DNA of 64,000 nt from assembly GCF_016102005.1 (NCBI RefSeq), contig NZ_JACFPL010000001.1:186001-250000 (forward strand), read 5' to 3'. Positions 37,556 through 49,724 of the stretch are shown one piece after another. The position numbers and the translations under genes were made by a program. Within the stretch, counting starts at the first letter, position 1. Each line of letters starts with the position of its first letter. Source of the DNA: Bifidobacterium choladohabitans (GTDB lineage: Bacteria; Actinomycetota; Actinomycetes; Actinomycetales; Bifidobacteriaceae). The notes beneath the pieces are model-generated. The model ran no database searches. It saw only the letters and a list, made by a program, of their open reading frames with translations, and was not told where the DNA came from.

Positions 37556-40141
37556 ATGCAGACAACGAATAAGGGATCCAGACTGATGGAGCCTTCAGCC
37601 AAGAGCGTCTTGCTGACAGACCTGGCACGATGGGTCAGACGCCACGCCCTTGCACTGGCCTTCAGCCTCGGACTGATCCTGCTCAACCTGATCAGCTGGC
37701 TGCTGATCTGGCTGCTGCGCATCCCCGGCAGAAACCGGCTGGGCATGCCCCTGTCCGATTTGATCATTCGTCGGGCCTCCCGGCCCTTCCATGGACAGGG
37801 TCGCCCCCCGCTCTTGGTCCAGTTTGCACGCCTACTGGTGTCCTTGGTCATCACCCCCGGTCCCCTGCCGCTGGCTATCGACGTTGCCCTGGTGCTGGTA
37901 ATGCTATGCATCGCCGAAACCAGGCTGGGGCGCAGGCGCACCGTGCTGGCAGCGGTCATCAGCGCTATAGGCGGCGCGGCGGTCGGTCTGATCATCTGCT
38001 GGCTGATCAACGCCCTCCAGAATCATTGGGCCTGGTTCATCAGAGTGCCCATGTCGCTCAGCCCCATCATCCTGGTGGTCGGTTCCCTGATGGCATCCAT
38101 TCCCTTCAGCGACTTCCTCTGGCGACGCAGGATTGCCACCATCGGTTACACAGCCTTGATCCTTATGGTGCTCTACACCGGCAATCCGGGCTCCTATTGC
38201 GCCCTGGCGGCCGCGCTGATCGGGCACCTGACCGGGCACCTCTGGCACGGGCCAGTCCAGGATGCCAACCCGCATGGCCATAGCGGATCCTACGAGACCC
38301 GCCACCTGCTGGGAGCGGTCGCCACGGTTCTGGCTCTCGGCCCCCTGGTCACCGTTTCCTCCCGCATTCGCGCCGGCTTCCTGACTCCCTTGGGTACATT
38401 CATGGGCTCCAATACAGGCGGAAGCGCTGCACTGTCTCGCTGCCTTGCGGAAAACAACCAGGTCAGCTGCTACGCCCACTACGGCCTGGTCGCCGGCCAT
38501 GCCCCCACTGGCATCTCCGCCCTGATCATGCCCACCCTCGTTATGCTGGTTGCGGCTTGGGGCATCTACCATGGCCGACGGGTCGCCGCTGTCACCGGTG
38601 TGGTCCTCAACGCTTTGACCGTCGTCATGGCCCTGCTCTATTTCCTGGTATTCCCACTGACCATCGGCGAAGGCCTGCCCCAGGCCATCCGTCACGGCGC
38701 CCTGCCCTCCCTGCTGATCATCACCCTGCCGCCGCTGATTCTCAGCTGGTTCCTGGTGCGCAACCTGGGCATCTTCCTGGTCCGGACCAAGACCTCACGT
38801 CTGCAACTGGGCTGGGCGGCCATCGTCCTGGCCTTCCTGGCCACCGCCATGGGCTACATGGCCTTCACCGCCATCAGTCCGGGCTCCTTCAATCCACGGC
38901 CCACCACTAGCAGGGCACTCTCCCAGCTGCCCGGGCTCTATCTGCCCAATGGAGTGGCTTCACGTTTCCTTCCAACACTGGTGCCGCGCACTCCCACAGG
39001 CAGACTAGTCAGCCACGGTATAGGACTGATCTTCTGGCTGGTGGTCCTGGTGGTCCTACTCTCCTGGATGCGCAGCTCGGTCATCCAGAACGGCAGCGAA
39101 CGCCAGGAGGCCGACAAGCTGGTCGAATACGGCGGTGAAAGCATGTCCTTCATGACCACCTGGGAGGGCAACAGCTACTGGTTCTCCCCCAGCGGCCACT
39201 CCGGCATAGCCTACCGGCTTTTGCACGGCATAGCCCTGACCACCACTGGCCCATTCGGCGACCCTGATGAATATGCGGACGACCTGGACGAATTCACGCG
39301 TTTCTGCACCGCACACTCCTGGTCACCGGTCTTCTACAGCATCCACAAGCCCCAACGTGATCTGCTTGCCGCACGCGGCTGGTCCACCCTGACGGTCGGC
39401 ACGGAGATGGTTGTCACCCCCAGCCTCTGGCAGACCAAGGGCAAAAAGTGGCAGGACATTCGCACAGCCATCAACAAGGCCAAGCGTGACAACATCACCG
39501 ACTTGCTGACCACCTTCAACGACGCGTCTTGGGACGTCCAGTCGCAGATCGTGGACATCTCCGAGCAGTGGGCCGAACTCAAGGCGCTGCCTGAGATGAA
39601 GTTCACCCTGGGCGGCCTGGATGAGCTGAGGGACCCGCGCATGGCCATCCTCTACGCCGTGGACGACCAGGGCAAGGTGCTGGCCGTGACCAGCTGGATG
39701 CCCACCTACCGCCAGGGCCAGGTGATCGGCTGGACCCTGGACTTCATGCGGCACAGGACCGACAGCCCCAATGGAATCATGGAGTTCCTGATTGCGCGGA
39801 TGGCCGAACGGCTGCGCGACCAGGGCACGGCGGAATTCATGAGCCTGTCGGCCGCTCCCTTGGCCGGCATGGACAGCAGTGAAGATCGGACCGCCTTCCT
39901 GCAGCATGCCCTGCATCTGGTGGCCGACCTGATGGAACCGGCCTACGGCTTCCGTTCCCTCTTCTTCTTCAAGAAGAAGTTCCAGCCCAGTGAGCACCCG
40001 GTCTATATCTGCTACCCCGACCCGGCCCAGCTGGCCCAGATCGGACTGGCCGTGGTCCAGGCCTACCTGCCCAATCTCAAGGCTTCGCAGGCCTGGGATG
40101 CCATCAAGACCATCATGCCCAAGGGCCGGGAGGATCGCTGA
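37556..40141 (+). CDS. MprF-like aminoacyl-tRNA:lipid aminoacyltransferase (DUF2156 C-terminal)
   Basis: 861 residues (851 if the ATG at 37586 with AAGGGA is used). An N-terminal half with about 12-14 membrane helices resembles a rhomboid/flippase-like membrane domain. The C-terminal cytosolic DUF2156 double-GNAT domain starts near residue 525 (LVEYGGESMSFMTTWEGNSY) and shows GIAYRLLHGIALTTTGPFGD, RTAINKAKRDNITD, VIGWTLDFMRHRTDSPNGIMEFLIARM and MSLSAAPLAG, hallmark segments of the phosphatidylglycerol lysyltransferase family. It transfers an amino acid from a tRNA to a membrane lipid such as PG or diacylglycerol, lowering surface charge. The partner esterase is just upstream. The amino acid cannot be read from sequence. 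The 3' end overlaps the convergent fur gene by 29 bp. Confidence 0.85.
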   Translation: MQTTNKGSRLMEPSAKSVLLTDLARWVRRHALALAFSLGLILLNLISWLLIWLLRIPGRNRLGMPLSDLIIRRASRPFHGQGRPPLLVQFARLLVSLVITPGPLPLAIDVALVLVMLCIAETRLGRRRTVLAAVISAIGGAAVGLIICWLINALQNHWAWFIRVPMSLSPIILVVGSLMASIPFSDFLWRRRIATIGYTALILMVLYTGNPGSYCALAAALIGHLTGHLWHGPVQDANPHGHSGSYETRHLLGAVATVLALGPLVTVSSRIRAGFLTPLGTFMGSNTGGSAALSRCLAENNQVSCYAHYGLVAGHAPTGISALIMPTLVMLVAAWGIYHGRRVAAVTGVVLNALTVVMALLYFLVFPLTIGEGLPQAIRHGALPSLLIITLPPLILSWFLVRNLGIFLVRTKTSRLQLGWAAIVLAFLATAMGYMAFTAISPGSFNPRPTTSRALSQLPGLYLPNGVASRFLPTLVPRTPTGRLVSHGIGLIFWLVVLVVLLSWMRSSVIQNGSERQEADKLVEYGGESMSFMTTWEGNSYWFSPSGHSGIAYRLLHGIALTTTGPFGDPDEYADDLDEFTRFCTAHSWSPVFYSIHKPQRDLLAARGWSTLTVGTEMVVTPSLWQTKGKKWQDIRTAINKAKRDNITDLLTTFNDASWDVQSQIVDISEQWAELKALPEMKFTLGGLDELRDPRMAILYAVDDQGKVLAVTSWMPTYRQGQVIGWTLDFMRHRTDSPNGIMEFLIARMAERLRDQGTAEFMSLSAAPLAGMDSSEDRTAFLQHALHLVADLMEPAYGFRSLFFFKKKFQPSEHPVYICYPDPAQLAQIGLAVVQAYLPNLKASQAWDAIKTIMPKGREDR

Positions 40142-40556
40142 CGTCTGTCTGACCGGAGCGGCCCCGACAACTGCTGCACAGGCCGTAGACCTCCAAGGTG
40201 TGCGAGGAGACCGTAAAACCATGTTCAGCCGCCACGTCCTTCAGCCAGCCATCGTCCGGCGGGCTGATCTCCACAGTCCTGCCGCAGCGTTCACAGACCA
40301 GATGATGGTGGTGCCTCCGCTGGGCCAGGCAGACCCTGTACAGGCGAATGCCTCCATGCTCAATGCAGTCCAGGCTGCCGGACATATGCAGGGACCCCAG
40401 CTGACGATAGACCGTGGCCAAGCCGATTCGCTGGCCTGAATCGCGAAGGAGCCTGTGCAGCTCCTTGGCTGAGACGAAGTCGTTCTGGGCCTGAAGAACC
40501 CTCCAGATGGCGTTCTTCTGCCGCGTCCGGCGACCGACGGATGAGCCAGCGTTCAT
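40113..40556 (-). CDS. Fur-family metalloregulator, possibly Zur
   Basis: 147 residues from the ATG at 40556 (AAGGAG about 10 nt upstream). The winged helix shows FVSAKELHRLLRDSGQRIGLATVYRQLGSL. The dimerisation/metal domain has HHHHLVCERCGRTVEI and a second CxxC in YGLCSSCRGR, giving the structural zinc site. The regulatory-site His cluster (RRHHHHL) fits Zur or Fur. It lies close to the ZnuA-like gene bearing a Fur/Zur-type box, which favours a zinc role, but the two are 4 kb apart on the same strand and not co-transcribed. The stop codon lies inside the 3' end of the convergent mprF-like gene. Confidence 0.88.
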   Translation of the reverse strand: MNAGSSVGRRTRQKNAIWRVLQAQNDFVSAKELHRLLRDSGQRIGLATVYRQLGSLHMSGSLDCIEHGGIRLYRVCLAQRRHHHHLVCERCGRTVEISPPDDGWLKDVAAEHGFTVSSHTLEVYGLCSSCRGRSGQTDVSDPPGPWA

Positions 40557-40625
40557 GATTAGACACACTCCTTGGGCTCCACCAAGCCTACATCCGGATT
40601 GCCGTAACAGATGTGAGGATTCGGT

Positions 40626-45270: not shown

Positions 45271-47928
45271 TCACGACACCCGAAGAATGCCATGCGCGCC
45301 TTTTTCGGCCAGGCTCATGACGTGATTGACTATGGAATAGTCGCCCGGCTGATCGACCTTGAGCTCGACAAATCCGCCTTGGGCCGGCAGCAGAGGAAGG
45401 ACCTGCGCTCCGGCCGATGAAGCACCGGCGGAATTCGCACCTGTGCCTCCGCCAATCAGGTAGCGGCCCTCGGTCCAGACCGCCTCGAACTGGGTTCCCA
45501 CGATATGGAAGGACAGCGGCTGGTTGGGTCCGGCATCCAGGACCCAGATGCGGACCCTTTGCCCCTTCTCCAGCTTGAGGGGGTGGGCGTCATATTGAAA
45601 GGCCCGTCCGTTGAAGGTCATGATATCCGGATTCATGGCCGCCACTTTTTCAGCATCGGCTGTCCCTCCATTGGGCCCCAGATAGATTTCGGACTGGACC
45701 AGAACATACTCCGCATTCACCGGTGGCAGGGTGCCGTCATCGACAACCACGGCCCCGTACATGCCGTTGGCTATATGGTTTGACATGGGGTCGCTGCTGC
45801 AGTGGTACATCCAAATGCCGGCCCGATCAGCGGTGAAGGTGTACAGGAGCTCCTTGCCTGGCTCTATGTTGCGCATCATGGTCTGCGGAACGGCCGGACC
45901 GGCATGAAAATCAATGGAATGACTCATGCTTCCCTTGTTTCTGATGGTTACTTCAAAGGTGTCTCCCACCCGGCCTCTGAGCACCGGACCCTGAGCCAGG
46001 GGCCGTGACCCCTTATCCCGTGGATCGCCCGCGTCGTCGAAGCTCCAGACCGTGCGCTCAAGCCCTGCCGCCACCTGCTCCTTGCGCTCTTTGACCTCCA
46101 AAGTGTACTTTCTTGTTCCAGCCTTCCCCTGATCATTCAAGGGTGGAAGAGCCGCCATGGCAGGATCGCTCTTCTCGGCCTGCGACTTGAGCTTGGCGGG
46201 TGATGGGACATGGCTTGGCGCCGCCTTCCCTAGAGAGGACTGACCTTGCTCGGCAACAGTTCCGCCCTGTGTTTCGACCTTGAGCTCCATGCCCATCTGG
46301 CGGTGTCCTGCCAAGGAGCACCAGCCCAGTGTGTCGCCCCCCAGGACTCCGACATCGACCGAGACGCTCTGGCCCACCGGAACCGACCCTGTGCTCTTGC
46401 CATTGGCGAAAACCAAGTCATGCCGCTGATCTCCGGTGTTTTGGAAATCCACAACCAGCCGGTCGCCTGCCTTGATGGTGATGACATCCGGCACAAAAGC
46501 CATCCCCTTTACCTTGATTGAAGCTCTGCTGGTGTGACCCGTCGGCTGGACGCTCTTCGACGATGCCTCCTGAATGCCTCCGGCACTGGGCGCCGCCCCG
46601 ACCGAGACGGCCAGCGTCGGCCGCAACGCCATCAAAACAACGGCGGCCACCAGGACCAGCACTGTAGCCGAGGTGGCAATCAGGTCCATCAGCAGGGCCA
46701 GGGTCCCAACATGTTCGGCTTGTGAATCCTCTGGCTGGCGCCGACGGTAGCGCTTGGATGCCAGGACCTGCTTGCCACGAGCAGCCAGGTAGACCACGGT
46801 CAGCATCATGGAGAGGATTCCCAGGACATTCAGCAGGTTCCCCGCCTTCCACAAGGGCGTATAGAGCCGGATGGCTCCCAGGAGCCTGATTAGCAAGCCA
46901 ACCTGCATAAGCGCCCAGGCACCCCAAAGGAGCGGATGAAATGGCAGAGGCCTGCGAATGACGGAGGGGACGATCATGCAGACATGGGCGATGACCATGG
47001 TCATGATAAATCCCACAGCCAGCGCGTGCAGTGCCATGTCGCCCCAGTAGGTGCTGGAATCCAGGGGTGCCAACATCCAGATGAGGGCAGCCAGAAGTCC
47101 CCAGGCGTAGGCCGATAGCATGCAGGTACCCATGAATCCTGGCAGGCCGCCATGACGGAAGGTGCCCTTGGCTACGTCGTGACTGGCCATGACCAGGAGG
47201 AGCAGACCCAGGGACAGCCCCAGAAGCGGATAGCCGACCGAAGGCGCCATGGCTTGGACCGGCAGCATCAGGACCGCCAGGAGGCTGAGTCCCAGAATCC
47301 CCGATTCAAGACGGACATCCGAAAAGACCGCCCTGGCCAGTTCCACCCGCTCACCGACGATGGTCAGAACCAGAAAGAAGAGCCAGGTCGGAGCCAGAAC
47401 CGCGGCGTCCAATCCTGCAACCCAGCCAGCGGCCCCGACCAGACCAACCAGGGATCCGAGAACCTGTATGAGCACCTCCGCAGAAGGCTGCCGACGCCAG
47501 ATGGCCAAGTACATGGCTGTCAGGACCAACATGGACAAAGTCCACGGAATGCCGCCAAAAAACTCCACTCTGACCCATGCCGGGGCAGCAGCGGGGCTCG
47601 AAACCATCAGCGACAGCAGGCAGAGCAAAGACCCCAGCAGACCCGAGGCAGGAGCGAGAAATCCCCATGTAGGTTTGCTGGATCCCCCGCTGCGGTAGGC
47701 CACTGCCCTTTCAAGACCAATGGCAGCGCCCAAAAACCCATAGACCATGAGCCCGCCGTGCAGATCAGCCAGGGGTACCTTGCCTGAGGGATGGATCAGA
47801 TCCGCGCGGATCAGCGCAGCAACAAGGCCAAGCATCGCAGCCAGGCCTGCGCCGATGAGGAGGACCATCCTGGACCTGGGCAAGGCCGTCCTGCCGCCGG
47901 ACTTGCGCATCTTCGGGTCATTGTGCAT
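45271..47928 (-). CDS. Three-module membrane copper protein: NnrS-like, cupredoxin and NirK-like two-domain copper oxidase
   Basis: 885 residues. Residues 1-440 hold about 12 membrane helices; LHGGLMVYGFLGAAIGLERA and LHALAVGFIMTMVIAHVCMI resemble NnrS. Residues about 468-552 are a cupredoxin with Cu ligands His503 (RHD), Cys537, His542, Met545. Residues about 605-885 resemble copper nitrite reductase: HSIDFH (His670, Asp673, His675), YHCSSDPMSNHIANGM (His709, Cys710, His718, Met723) and SIVNHVMSL (His869), giving type 1 and type 2 sites. The position of the second catalytic His of NirK (LIGGH) reads Gln813. It may reduce nitrite or oxidise another substrate at the outer face. It is divergent from a redox-type regulator over 58 bp holding an inverted repeat. 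Start: AAGGCGG before the ATG. Confidence 0.83.
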   Translation of the reverse strand: MHNDPKMRKSGGRTALPRSRMVLLIGAGLAAMLGLVAALIRADLIHPSGKVPLADLHGGLMVYGFLGAAIGLERAVAYRSGGSSKPTWGFLAPASGLLGSLLCLLSLMVSSPAAAPAWVRVEFFGGIPWTLSMLVLTAMYLAIWRRQPSAEVLIQVLGSLVGLVGAAGWVAGLDAAVLAPTWLFFLVLTIVGERVELARAVFSDVRLESGILGLSLLAVLMLPVQAMAPSVGYPLLGLSLGLLLLVMASHDVAKGTFRHGGLPGFMGTCMLSAYAWGLLAALIWMLAPLDSSTYWGDMALHALAVGFIMTMVIAHVCMIVPSVIRRPLPFHPLLWGAWALMQVGLLIRLLGAIRLYTPLWKAGNLLNVLGILSMMLTVVYLAARGKQVLASKRYRRRQPEDSQAEHVGTLALLMDLIATSATVLVLVAAVVLMALRPTLAVSVGAAPSAGGIQEASSKSVQPTGHTSRASIKVKGMAFVPDVITIKAGDRLVVDFQNTGDQRHDLVFANGKSTGSVPVGQSVSVDVGVLGGDTLGWCSLAGHRQMGMELKVETQGGTVAEQGQSSLGKAAPSHVPSPAKLKSQAEKSDPAMAALPPLNDQGKAGTRKYTLEVKERKEQVAAGLERTVWSFDDAGDPRDKGSRPLAQGPVLRGRVGDTFEVTIRNKGSMSHSIDFHAGPAVPQTMMRNIEPGKELLYTFTADRAGIWMYHCSSDPMSNHIANGMYGAVVVDDGTLPPVNAEYVLVQSEIYLGPNGGTADAEKVAAMNPDIMTFNGRAFQYDAHPLKLEKGQRVRIWVLDAGPNQPLSFHIVGTQFEAVWTEGRYLIGGGTGANSAGASSAGAQVLPLLPAQGGFVELKVDQPGDYSIVNHVMSLAEKGAHGILRVS

Positions 47929-47958
47929 GGGTCTGTCCGCCTTGTCCTGGTTTGATAA

Positions 47959-47982
47959 TAAATTTGATAGTTATACAATTTA
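47959..47982. promoter_or_regulatory. Inverted repeat in the divergent promoter of the copper protein and its regulator
   Basis: TAAATT-N12-AATTTA (47959-47964 and 47977-47982) in a short AT-rich 58-bp gap that must hold both promoters. It ends 4 bp before the regulator ATG, so binding would block its own start; the regulator is the obvious candidate ligand. Confidence 0.45.
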
Positions 47983-47986
47983 ATCG

Positions 47987-48739
47987 ATGAGTCAGGAAAT
48001 TCAAGCCCGTAAACAACTGGTCCAAGCCCACGGCAAGCGCAGAAGCGGTGAGGAGATCCGCTCCGCAATCTTGGATTATCTGCATATGGCGGCCGAACAG
48101 ACCGGCACAGGTCTGACCGCACAGCAGATCGGAGCTGCCTTTGGCATCCATCCGACGACCGCTCGTTTCCATCTTGAACATCTGGTCGAACAGGGCGAAG
48201 CAGTCCGCCGGAGAAACGACAGCGATGGTCAATCAGCCGGACGGGGCAGACCGCCTGTCATCTACTCCCCCACATCCACAAACCACACCCAGGAGGATAT
48301 GATCTCCTCGCTCTGCATGGCTCTGGAAACCGCCTGCCCCGATACTGGCAGTAGGGATAGGGCTGCACTGAAAGCAGGTCAGGCCTGGGGCCGTGCCCTG
48401 GCCAGACAAAGCAGGGGGAATGCAAAAAAGGGTGTGTCATCGAGCATGAAGCAGACACTGTTGAACACTTTGGCCACCCTGGGGTTTGCTCCGGTTACGG
48501 CAGAACCGGATTCAGCGAGTCTGTATCTGACCTCATGCCCCTTCTTGGACAGCGTCAACGCCCATCCCATTATCTGCACAATCCATCTGGGTATGGTCCA
48601 AGGAATCGTGGAGGGCAGCAGCAAGGCGGCCAAGGATCAAAAGGCCCGTGTATTGCTGAAACCCCTGTCATCGCCAAAAGGATGCTTCTTGAAAGTAGCG
48701 AAAGTGGACAACAAACCAAGGAGGAAAGTAAAGCAATGA
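47987..48739 (+). CDS. Winged-helix transcriptional regulator with C-terminal cysteine motif (possible Fe-S/redox sensor)
   Basis: 250 residues. N-terminal winged helix about 20-95: [36 protein letters not shown] and [14 protein letters not shown], followed by a [11 protein letters not shown] wing. A central helical part precedes a motif [26 protein letters not shown] with Cys184, Cys197 and His200. This CPF-x-P-x-C-x2-H pattern occurs in SufR-like and related regulators where it binds a metal or Fe-S cluster, so sensing of oxygen, NO or iron is plausible. The stop overlaps the ferredoxin ATG (ATGA). It is divergent from the NirK-like gene, its likely target. The exact signal is unknown. Confidence 0.75.
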
Positions 48740-49122
48740 CCTACGTGATTGCCCAGCCCTGCGTGGACGTCAAGGACAAGGCCTGCGTGGACGAATGCCC
48801 GGTGGATTGCATCTACGAGGGCCCCAGGAATCTATACATCAACCCCAACGAATGCATCGACTGCGGCGCCTGTGAGCCGGTCTGCCCCGTGGAGGCGATC
48901 TTCTACGAAGAGGACCTGCCAGAGGAATGGACCTGGTTCAAGGATGCCTCCGAAGACTTCTTTGCCCAGGTCGGTGATGCCGGCGGCGCCCAGGCCCGGG
49001 GACCCTATGATCACGACCATCCACAGGTCGCCGCCCTGCCCCACCAGGATAACTTCGTCTGCATCCAGGCGGAATCACGCGGCCAGCGCGCGGTCTGGGT
49101 ACGCAAGGACCAAACGGAATGA
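48736..49122 (+). CDS. fdxA: 7Fe ferredoxin (FdxA type)
   Basis: 128 residues. The N-terminal sequence [20 protein letters not shown] is that of actinobacterial FdxA. Cluster ligands: Cys9, 17, 21, 25 and Cys40, 43, 46, 50 ([16 protein letters not shown]), arranged as one 3Fe-4S and one 4Fe-4S cluster. A C-terminal tail of about 60 residues is longer than the core, as usual for this type. The ATG overlaps the regulator stop and its own stop overlaps the glycosylase ATG, indicating translational coupling. It carries electrons in the cytoplasm; the partner is not evident here. Confidence 0.93.
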
Positions 49123-49724
49123 AGGCCGGTTCAAGCCAGGACGGTCACCTGGTCTTCCCTGACTTTTTGGACCGCCCTGTGGATCAGGCCGCCCGGATGC
49201 TTCTGGGCTGCCTGATCATCCGGGACTACGAGTCGGAAGGTGAACAGGCCAGGGTTCGGATCGTGGAAACCGAGGCCTACGATCAGAATGATCCGGCCAG
49301 CCATGCCTATCGCGGGCGATCGGCCCGCAACGATGCCCTTTTCGGCCCCAGCGGACACATGTACGTCTACTTTACCTATGGAATGCACTACTGCATGAAC
49401 GTCTCCTGTCAGGAGGACGGATTCGGCGCCGGGGTACTGATTCGAGCCTGCCAGCCAGTGCAGGGTCTGGATCTTCTACGCAGCCACAGGCACGGCAGTC
49501 ACCCGGATCGGGAACTAACCAACGGCCCCGCCAAGCTCTGCCAGGCATTGGACATAGACAAGCGTAACTACGGCCATGACCTCAGGAAACCGCCCATACG
49601 CCTGGCAGCCGCAGGGCTGAATCAGGACGAGACCATCACGGCAACCCCGCGAATAGGCATCTCCCATGCCAAAGAGACCCTACGACGGTTCGTCATCACC
49701 GGTAACCGCTACCTGTCGCGATGA
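49119..49724 (+). CDS. 3-methyladenine DNA glycosylase (AAG/Mpg family)
   Basis: 201 residues. It removes alkylated or deaminated purines from [13 protein letters not shown]-like start region ([14 protein letters not shown]), [21 protein letters not shown] with the catalytic Glu/Tyr area, [20 protein letters not shown] and [15 protein letters not shown] are family hallmarks. It overlaps the ferredoxin gene by 4 bp. The operon with a redox regulator and ferredoxin suggests a role against nitrosative deamination, such as hypoxanthine repair; this is inference. It lies 45 bp from a convergent MFS gene. Confidence 0.92.

Follow-up and report, generated by a model that had tools for sequence, protein, structure and literature searches.

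The subject of this analysis is a gene of Bifidobacterium choladohabitans, located on the minus strand at 45271-47928 of a 64,000-nucleotide stretch of DNA (the window, G000:C3:186001-250000, from a source genome of 2.08 Mb in 10 contigs). It encodes, in a single open frame of 885 amino acids, a membrane domain (A) joined to a cupredoxin and to a copper nitrite reductase (CuNIR) core of the NirK type. The copper part is most likely a NirK-type reductase which forms nitric oxide (NO) outside the membrane. On balance, we favor the reading of the whole protein as a membrane-tethered nitrite reductase in which the electrons enter through the same chain, that is, a menaquinol:nitrite oxidoreductase. 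A more elaborate version, which we put forward tentatively, is that A is a stripped heme-copper-oxidase scaffold that acts as a quinol dehydrogenase, was welded to the copper domains at least twice, is replaced elsewhere by a different membrane partner (X), and serves a small anaerobic respiration.

Copper Sites and the Catalytic Histidine

A first reading of the window from its letters alone (the sequence-only reading) had placed three copper-related modules on one polypeptide: a 12-helix domain, a complete cupredoxin site, and a NirK-like core with full type 1 and type 2 ligands and Asp673. All of these were recovered, on the minus strand. In the full-length AlphaFold2 model (alignment of 124 rows; mean predicted local distance difference test, pLDDT, 86.9; predicted template modeling score, pTM, 0.55), twelve predicted helices lie between residues 18 and 397, with one further helix at 405-435 and strands thereafter. 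Pfam and NCBIfam recognize the cupredoxin (Cupredoxin_1, E 3e-9, residues 463-527) and a NirK-like multicopper oxidase core, while residues 1-400 have no family match at E 0.001 in either library. The combination of membrane part, cupredoxin, and NirK is already published for the actinobacteria, in which NirK is reported to carry an extension of ~400 amino acids, referred to as a transmembrane domain of unknown function, with a cupredoxin in all the sampled sequences (PMC4770552), and most actinobacterial sequences are assigned to NirK Clade 3 (PMC10999283).

The copper ligands are highly conserved in the 79 aligned rows that cover the core (the window, 15 other A-NirK proteins, and 63 others). 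The type 1 ligands His670, Cys710, and His718 and the type 2 ligands His675, His709, and His869 are identical throughout (79/79), as are the cupredoxin ligands His503, Cys537, His542, and Met547 in the 79 rows that cover them, whereas the remaining type 1 position, 723, is Met in 71 rows, including the window, and Leu in eight. The residues given in PMC4770552 as separating NirK from the other copper oxidases (Asp, His, Cys, His, Met, and the active-site His) are all present. The match to TIGR02376 (E 4.2e-36, residues 588-884) is discussed below with respect to its score.

The best matches in the PDB, by both sequence and fold, are nitrite reductases. The three-domain CuNIR of Hyphomicrobium denitrificans (2dv6, 6tfd), which has an N-terminal cupredoxin followed by a NirK core, as here, is a top match by sequence and by fold, and the core of the four-domain enzyme of Bradyrhizobium ORS375 (6the) is also among the top matches in both respects, although these structures lack a membrane domain, unlike the window protein. 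The Clade II CuNIRs AniA of Neisseria and NirK of Geobacillus match over the core, and have neither the cupredoxin nor the A domain.

The sequence-only reading had also proposed that the second catalytic histidine of NirK is replaced by Gln813, and this proposal has to be abandoned; a catalytic histidine nearby is what that reading itself had named as grounds for refutation. The solved sequences with the five best matches (6the, 2dv6, 6tfd, 3wia, and 3wkq) align their SFHVIG or SFHVVG motif with LSFHIVG of the window, which identifies His808, five residues upstream of Gln813, as the catalytic histidine. The active-site motif of Clade II NirK is reported as SSFHV/I/P, or less often LSFHV/I (PMC4770552). 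His808 is found in all 79 rows, and the homologues surveyed at position 813 have Gln in 78 and Arg in one, so that Gln is the norm of the lineage. Of the 30 loci compared (including that of the window), 27 have Gln and three (L018, L020, and L021) have His at this position, while the five aligned solved enzymes have Ile (three) or Val (two); Geobacillus NirK keeps the SFHVVG motif and has Val here. The loss of the catalytic histidine is thus ruled out by the alignments to solved structures, the 30 loci, and the 79 rows. In the NirK of Ralstonia pickettii, the catalytic residue is His240, and Ile245 is the proposed primary activator of the proton channel (PMC13324648). As Ile245 and Gln813 both lie five residues past the catalytic histidine, Gln813 is a polar, lineage-typical residue near a proton channel, rather than a lost proton donor.

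The Membrane Domain and its Alternative Partner

The structure predicted for A alone (pLDDT 91.6, pTM 0.92) resembles subunit I of the heme-copper oxidases. VIA-align gave a Z of 28.1 to CcoN (8smr_E; 3.9 A over 360 residues) and of 27.1 to NorB (4xyd_A; 3.7 A over 359 residues), and each of the top 50 rows listed (Z 22.8-28.1) has the title of a heme-copper oxidase, an NO reductase, or a supercomplex that includes one; mostly helical models with no clear match typically reach a best Z of 14, well below these values. The first 13 rows of Foldseek, with probabilities of 0.99-1.00, are likewise all heme-copper oxidases or NO reductases, and a viral fold library had no match with E <1e-3. The predicted model of A has a 12-helix fold like that of CcoN and NorB, with 353-361 residues aligned at 3.6-4.1 A. 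The two proteins differ from A in having no detectable sequence similarity to it, and in their active-site histidines, which are not present in A.

Heme-copper oxidases hold a low-spin heme on histidines of helices 2 and 10, and a second metal on histidines of helices 6 and 7, while the histidine of the active-site heme stands two residues before the helix-10 ligand. The 45 A sequences aligned here are invariant at His57, His301, His315, Glu73, Arg74, Arg194, Asp251, Asp297, and Arg348. Helix 6 has no histidine in any of them, helix 7 has one in at most five of the 45 in any column, and position 299, which precedes His301 by two residues, has A, G, V, I, L, T, or S, and never His. This absence of conserved histidines in helices 6 and 7 and at residue 299 points to a single low-spin heme with no oxygen- or NO-reducing center. 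Judged by these sequences, A would not belong with the oxidases or the NO reductases as an enzyme, and its model is perhaps that of a low-spin heme protein without an active site. The charges of the loops suggest that His57 and His301 face the outside, near a possible docking site of the cupredoxin, while His315, together with Glu73/Arg74, Glu193/Arg194, and Asp251, would form a conserved polar set toward the cytoplasmic side, for which a quinol-binding role is a guess.

The sequence-only reading had described the membrane part as NnrS-like, and this likeness holds, albeit as a remote one. The NnrS family, PF05940, is listed by 11 of the 45 A members at E up to 10, the best being 3e-4 (an estimated 21 bits or so), and a profile of 12 NnrS sequences matches A with a probability of 87% (hhalign, E 4e-6, 133 columns), compared with 0.1-0.2% for five controls (reversed or unrelated). 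NnrS and A are alike in length and in their helices, and align over the last third, which includes a conserved histidine, although the A domain of the window falls below the Pfam gathering score (E 1.8, 8.3 bits vs. a cut-off of 28). No match to PF05940 was found in the source genome, and, of single NnrS sequences, a distant one gave E 9e-4 and 23%, while that of S. meliloti gave no match. When relatives of NnrS were sought, a distant query against plasmids yielded one record, and 36 genomes of one class yielded the starting genome only. We know of no NnrS fused to NirK.

The distribution of A was followed in 119 related genomes and a collection of named genomes, using profiles of A (the N-terminal part in Bifidobacterium), of X (the membrane part of other proteins of ~900 amino acids), and of K (the cupredoxin-NirK part). 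Matches were found in 42 of the 119, three of which (G076, G095, and G098) have weak multicopper or cupredoxin matches only. The named loci were drawn from 251 confirmed stretches as the best 80, of which 78 are distinct, so that the counts lean to near relatives; L068 and L069 are near-copies. The closest loci, which come from Bifidobacterium mellis and a strain of B. asteroides, have 94% identity, in a listing that may omit records very near the genome of the window.

In these 78 loci, A and K share one frame in 15, X and K in 52, and K stands alone in 11. Of the K-alone loci, nine carry A and X as separate genes next to K, L089 has just X, and L066 is truncated at a contig end. An A gene is present in the locus in 38 of the 52 X-K cases (in pieces in L092) and absent from the other 14, some of which are cut by contig ends. 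Overall, of the 63 named loci with no A-NirK fusion, 47 have A as a separate neighbor (nine with NirK alone and 38 with X-NirK, including the locus in which A is in pieces). The recurrence in many genomes of full-length relatives, and of the same parts as neighboring genes, indicates that the fusion is more than a chance event.

The A-NirK fusion is found in the bifidobacteria, in Scardovia, and, separately, in one metagenome-assembled genome (MAG) of Brachybacterium (L064), where a relative of the regulator described below lies directly upstream, and the 14.5-kb locus contains no X. In the profile search of 121 Bifidobacteriaceae genomes, X was found in three, all of the genus g16 and all with three separate genes, and was not found in the bifidobacteria or Scardovia. 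The methylpurine-DNA glycosylase (MPG) gene that neighbors nirK in the window (49119-49724) is also its neighbor in g16, which speaks for a fusion in place with the loss of X, and gives the locus the appearance of being old in the family. The NirK of the Propionibacterium acnes type has the same order of modules as the window protein and about the same size, and, by analogy with its Propionibacteriaceae relatives (L100, L109, L110, and L116), would be of the X type, the form fused in 52 of the 78 loci, in contrast with the A of the window.

The sequences of A and X share no stretch of more than 20 bits between their profiles in the named loci, while the comparison of the two profiles gave a probability of 37% (E 3.5e-4, 173 columns), and a remote kinship is possible. 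Against the NnrS and NorB/CcoN profiles, X scored 0.4-0.8%, no better than the MFS and CitMHS controls (0.6% and 0.4%). Among the 43 X members, one has a COX1 match at 1.3e-4, one distant NnrS sequence gave 22% (E 1e-3), and a search of the PDB sequences with the X profile had no match. A 452-residue membrane protein of S. meliloti pSymA (L137:18235-19590, minus strand) matches the X profile at 62% (E 8e-5, 86 columns) and lies near norB- and nnrS-like frames; denitrification loci of proteobacteria may contain relatives of X.

K was placed in a quick maximum-likelihood tree (66 rows, 418 columns), with branch support from the SH-like approximate likelihood ratio test (SH-aLRT) only. Its rows were taken from 94 NirK regions, a count that leaves out a split NirK (L038) and a partial one (L047), neither with a single stretch of more than 300 residues; to thin the set, 28 regions (eight A-NirK, one NirK alone, and 19 X-NirK) were removed by hand, some of which were not near-copies. 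Ten A-K rows of the Bifidobacteriaceae group together (support 94), amid loci with mostly separate genes, and the Brachybacterium fusion sits in the X-K part of the tree. A tree in which the 11 A-K rows are held as one clade was rejected by the approximately unbiased test (p-AU 0.026), which is a moderate value. In Schaalia, the locus L075 has an X-K fusion, and its sister L082 has separate genes. There is moderate evidence in this tree that A was welded to the cupredoxin-NirK part in two lineages, that is, at least twice. As the same copper module has been joined to either membrane protein, and to A at least twice, these fusions are good evidence that the partners act together.

Proposed Electron Route and Competing Explanations

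In the reading we favor, A would bind one low-spin heme b, take electrons from (demethyl)menaquinol, and relay them by way of the fused cupredoxin to NirK, where they would travel through the type 1 copper, with nitrite being reduced to NO at the type 2 copper. Both copper domains would lie outside the membrane, carried there by the 13th helix of the predicted model. Both the heme and the quinol in A are proposed from the conserved residues and the fold. In the majority of the loci sampled, the cupredoxin-NirK part is accompanied by both A and X, the latter mostly as a fusion, while the bifidobacteria and Scardovia have only A, fused to it, with no X detected. The cellular role would be that of a minor anaerobic electron sink, with the removal of nitrite, beside cytochrome bd, and a neighboring three-cysteine regulator would sense the NO formed and tune expression.

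The respiratory setting is compatible with this scheme, and the supply of electrons and quinone is plausible. The source genome has cydA, and two menA-like frames that score above the cut-off stand side by side (G000:C3:345212-346822) as a tandem pair of prenyltransferase genes. Cytochrome bd, predicted menaquinone genes, and a low uptake of oxygen are reported for B. asteroides (PMC3447821). The sequence-only reading had called such an enzyme unexpected for a largely fermentative genus, and this surprise is weaker than it seems, given the relatives in B. mellis and B. asteroides, the respiration described for the latter (PMC3447821), and the cydA and menA-like genes of the source genome itself. 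The nitrite would need to come from outside, and no NO sink was recognized among the families searched, except possibly A itself.

A number of observations weigh against this reading. No match to COX1/NO reductase, globin, molybdopterin oxidoreductase, or Hcp was found in the genome (the controls were positive in 8/14, 5/14, 12/14, and 5/14, respectively), which leaves the source of the nitrite and the fate of the NO unexplained. The best Foldseek E for A is 1.4e-3, with none below 1e-3, the sequence profile of A has no match among all the PDB chains, and its profile comparison with NorB/CcoN or CyoB gave 0.1%, so the link to the oxidase fold rests on the predicted model. With a pTM of 0.55, the placing of the domains relative to one another in the full-length model is untrustworthy. 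The score of 124.9 bits misses the curated equivalog cut-off of TIGR02376 in NCBIfam (296.3 bits); this cut-off is a threshold for naming and not a catalytic criterion, and the protein is labeled here as NirK-type, and not as a TIGR02376 equivalog. For the three-domain Hyphomicrobium enzyme, published work places the additional cupredoxin at too great a distance from the core to pass on electrons, and reports a rise in activity on the loss of its copper (PMC4770552, PMC13324648). The regulator, finally, was not found near the locus in 26 of 74 cases, including Scardovia (L071) and B. bohemicum (L063).

The strongest competitor, which we consider distinctly less probable, is that A acts like NnrS, binding or handling the NO released by NirK, and protecting the heme and Fe-S enzymes, with no role in feeding electrons. 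The remote similarity of A to NnrS, collinear over the last third, including His301, agrees with this role, as does the presence of a regulator resembling an NO sensor beside the gene, and protection from NO would be useful in a genome with no match to globin, NO reductase, or Hcp. In our judgement, however, the fusion through a cupredoxin, and the occurrence of A or X on the same copper domains, fit electron transfer better, and the predicted fold favors a role with heme b and quinol, while speaking against an NO reductase.

It is rather unlikely that A is merely a membrane anchor and assembly platform, with the electrons coming from elsewhere. Neither A nor X is indispensable everywhere, given that X-NirK has no separate A match in five whole genomes (G080, G099, G104, G114, and G115), and that A-NirK without X also exists. 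An anchor would not, however, require as much as twelve helices and a set of invariant His, Asp, Glu, and Arg residues located in or at the membrane.

The probability is lower still that the protein is a multicopper oxidase for copper tolerance, or for some other substrate than nitrite, as its matches to the general multicopper oxidase families of Pfam and the missed NirK equivalog cut-off might suggest. The residues of the CuNIR type, including Asp673 and His808, are the same in all 79 rows, the best PDB matches by sequence and fold are nitrite reductases, and no copper export or chaperone family is found among the 11 neighboring proteins scanned; a role in copper tolerance is held to be unlikely on these three grounds. 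The idea of A as a degenerate NO reductase that still makes N2O, in a one-chain enzyme from nitrite to N2O, is suggested by the presence of NorB among the best fold matches (Z 27.1), and is rejected as highly improbable, since the histidine ligands of a binuclear center, in helices 6 and 7 and at residue 299, are absent from the 45 A sequences.

Neighboring Features and Significance

The features of the gene and of the adjoining DNA are listed in Table 1.

Table 1. Location of the fusion gene, its domains and key residues, and the adjoining regulatory features in the window.
Feature	Position	Strand	Basis
Gene for the A-cupredoxin-NirK fusion protein, 885 aa	45271..47928	-	Stop codon included; whole-length relatives elsewhere
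A domain, residues 18-397, 12 membrane helices	46738..47877	-	Models (mean pLDDT 86.9 and 91.6); VIA-align; NnrS profile
His57, helix 2, candidate low-spin heme ligand	47758..47760	-	45/45 and 61/61; heme role putative
His301, helix 10, candidate low-spin heme ligand	47026..47028	-	45/45; aligned with NnrS His; heme role putative
His315, deeper in helix 10	46984..46986	-	45/45; quinol-site role a guess
13th membrane helix, residues 405-435	46624..46716	-	Predicted secondary structure; loop charges, positive-inside rule
Cupredoxin domain, about residues 463-556, ligands His503, Cys537, His542, Met547	46261..46542	-	Pfam, model, alignment
NirK core, about residues 600-885, type 1 and type 2 copper ligands	45274..46131	-	Family match, alignments
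Catalytic Asp673	45910..45912	-	79/79 rows
Catalytic His808	45505..45507	-	Alignments to solved CuNIR; His in 79/79 rows; FHxxG in 30/30 loci
Gln813, non-catalytic, lineage-typical	45490..45492	-	Gln 78/79, Arg 1/79
Divergent promoter region of nirK and regulator, 58 bp	47929..47986	.	Conserved over 12 aligned Bifidobacterium rows
Imperfect inverted repeat, candidate operator	47959..47982	.	11-nt arms, 82% complementary, 2-nt spacer; consensus match
Divergent winged-helix regulator gene, ArnR/SufR-like	47987..48739	+	HTH_20; Cys184, Cys197, Cys233

The three cysteines of the divergent regulator are present in 55 of 55 aligned rows (including that of the window), and 48 of 74 loci have a related gene no more than 1 kb upstream, four of the 78 (L066, L084, L088, and L109) being dropped because the upstream DNA is cut. 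ArnR of Corynebacterium has Cys179, 193, and 223, binds a [4Fe-4S] cluster, and is reported to lose its DNA binding in the presence of NO, while the mycobacterial SufR (Rv1460) has Cys203, 216, and 244 (PMC12343034, PMC6034842). Compared by these published positions, the window regulator shares with the two proteins a winged helix and three cysteines of like spacing, and differs in that their known target genes are other than the nirK locus. By this analogy, it would be a kind of ArnR/SufR-type regulator, and a putative Fe-S/NO sensor; a PDB sequence search with it had no match. The inverted repeat overlaps a promoter-like match for the regulator, in lists of predicted sites that barely exceed those of shuffled sequences (2 vs. 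0.7). A gene for a regulator of the Fur family is also found in the window (40113-40568, minus strand), beside a purK-like gene.

In one genome of the same genus (G023; L036, also L017), the fusion gene is broken in the A part, with its pieces on two overlapping frames, and another genome (G001, L048:3261-3512) has a 54-residue piece of NirK, 83% identical and some 5 kb from the intact gene, which is perhaps the remnant of a duplication.

The distinction between A and X, the bifidobacterial A-NirK fusion, the oxidase-like fold of A, and a small anaerobic nitrite respiration in the genus Bifidobacterium were not found described in the searches made of the open-licence literature of PubMed Central. 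The words nitrite and copper do not occur in the main text of the B. asteroides genome paper (PMC3447821), nor in that of the honeybee phylotype paper. A 2025 survey of the human gut, which used the NirK of Pseudomonas chlororaphis as its query at E 1e-40, reports NirK or NirS only in Neisseria macacae and Simonsiella (PMC12998184), and a NirK as distant as that of the window could slip under such a cut-off.

The two alternative membrane partners provide a concrete and testable answer to the question of the electron route to the actinobacterial NirK, one of them, A, having the predicted fold of a heme-copper oxidase that seems to lack an active site. The weld to A involves a membrane partner other than the usual one, and suggests that electrons are fed directly from the membrane to what appears to be an intact NO-forming enzyme, which is thereby placed in the bifidobacteria of the bee gut and in Scardovia wiggsiae.

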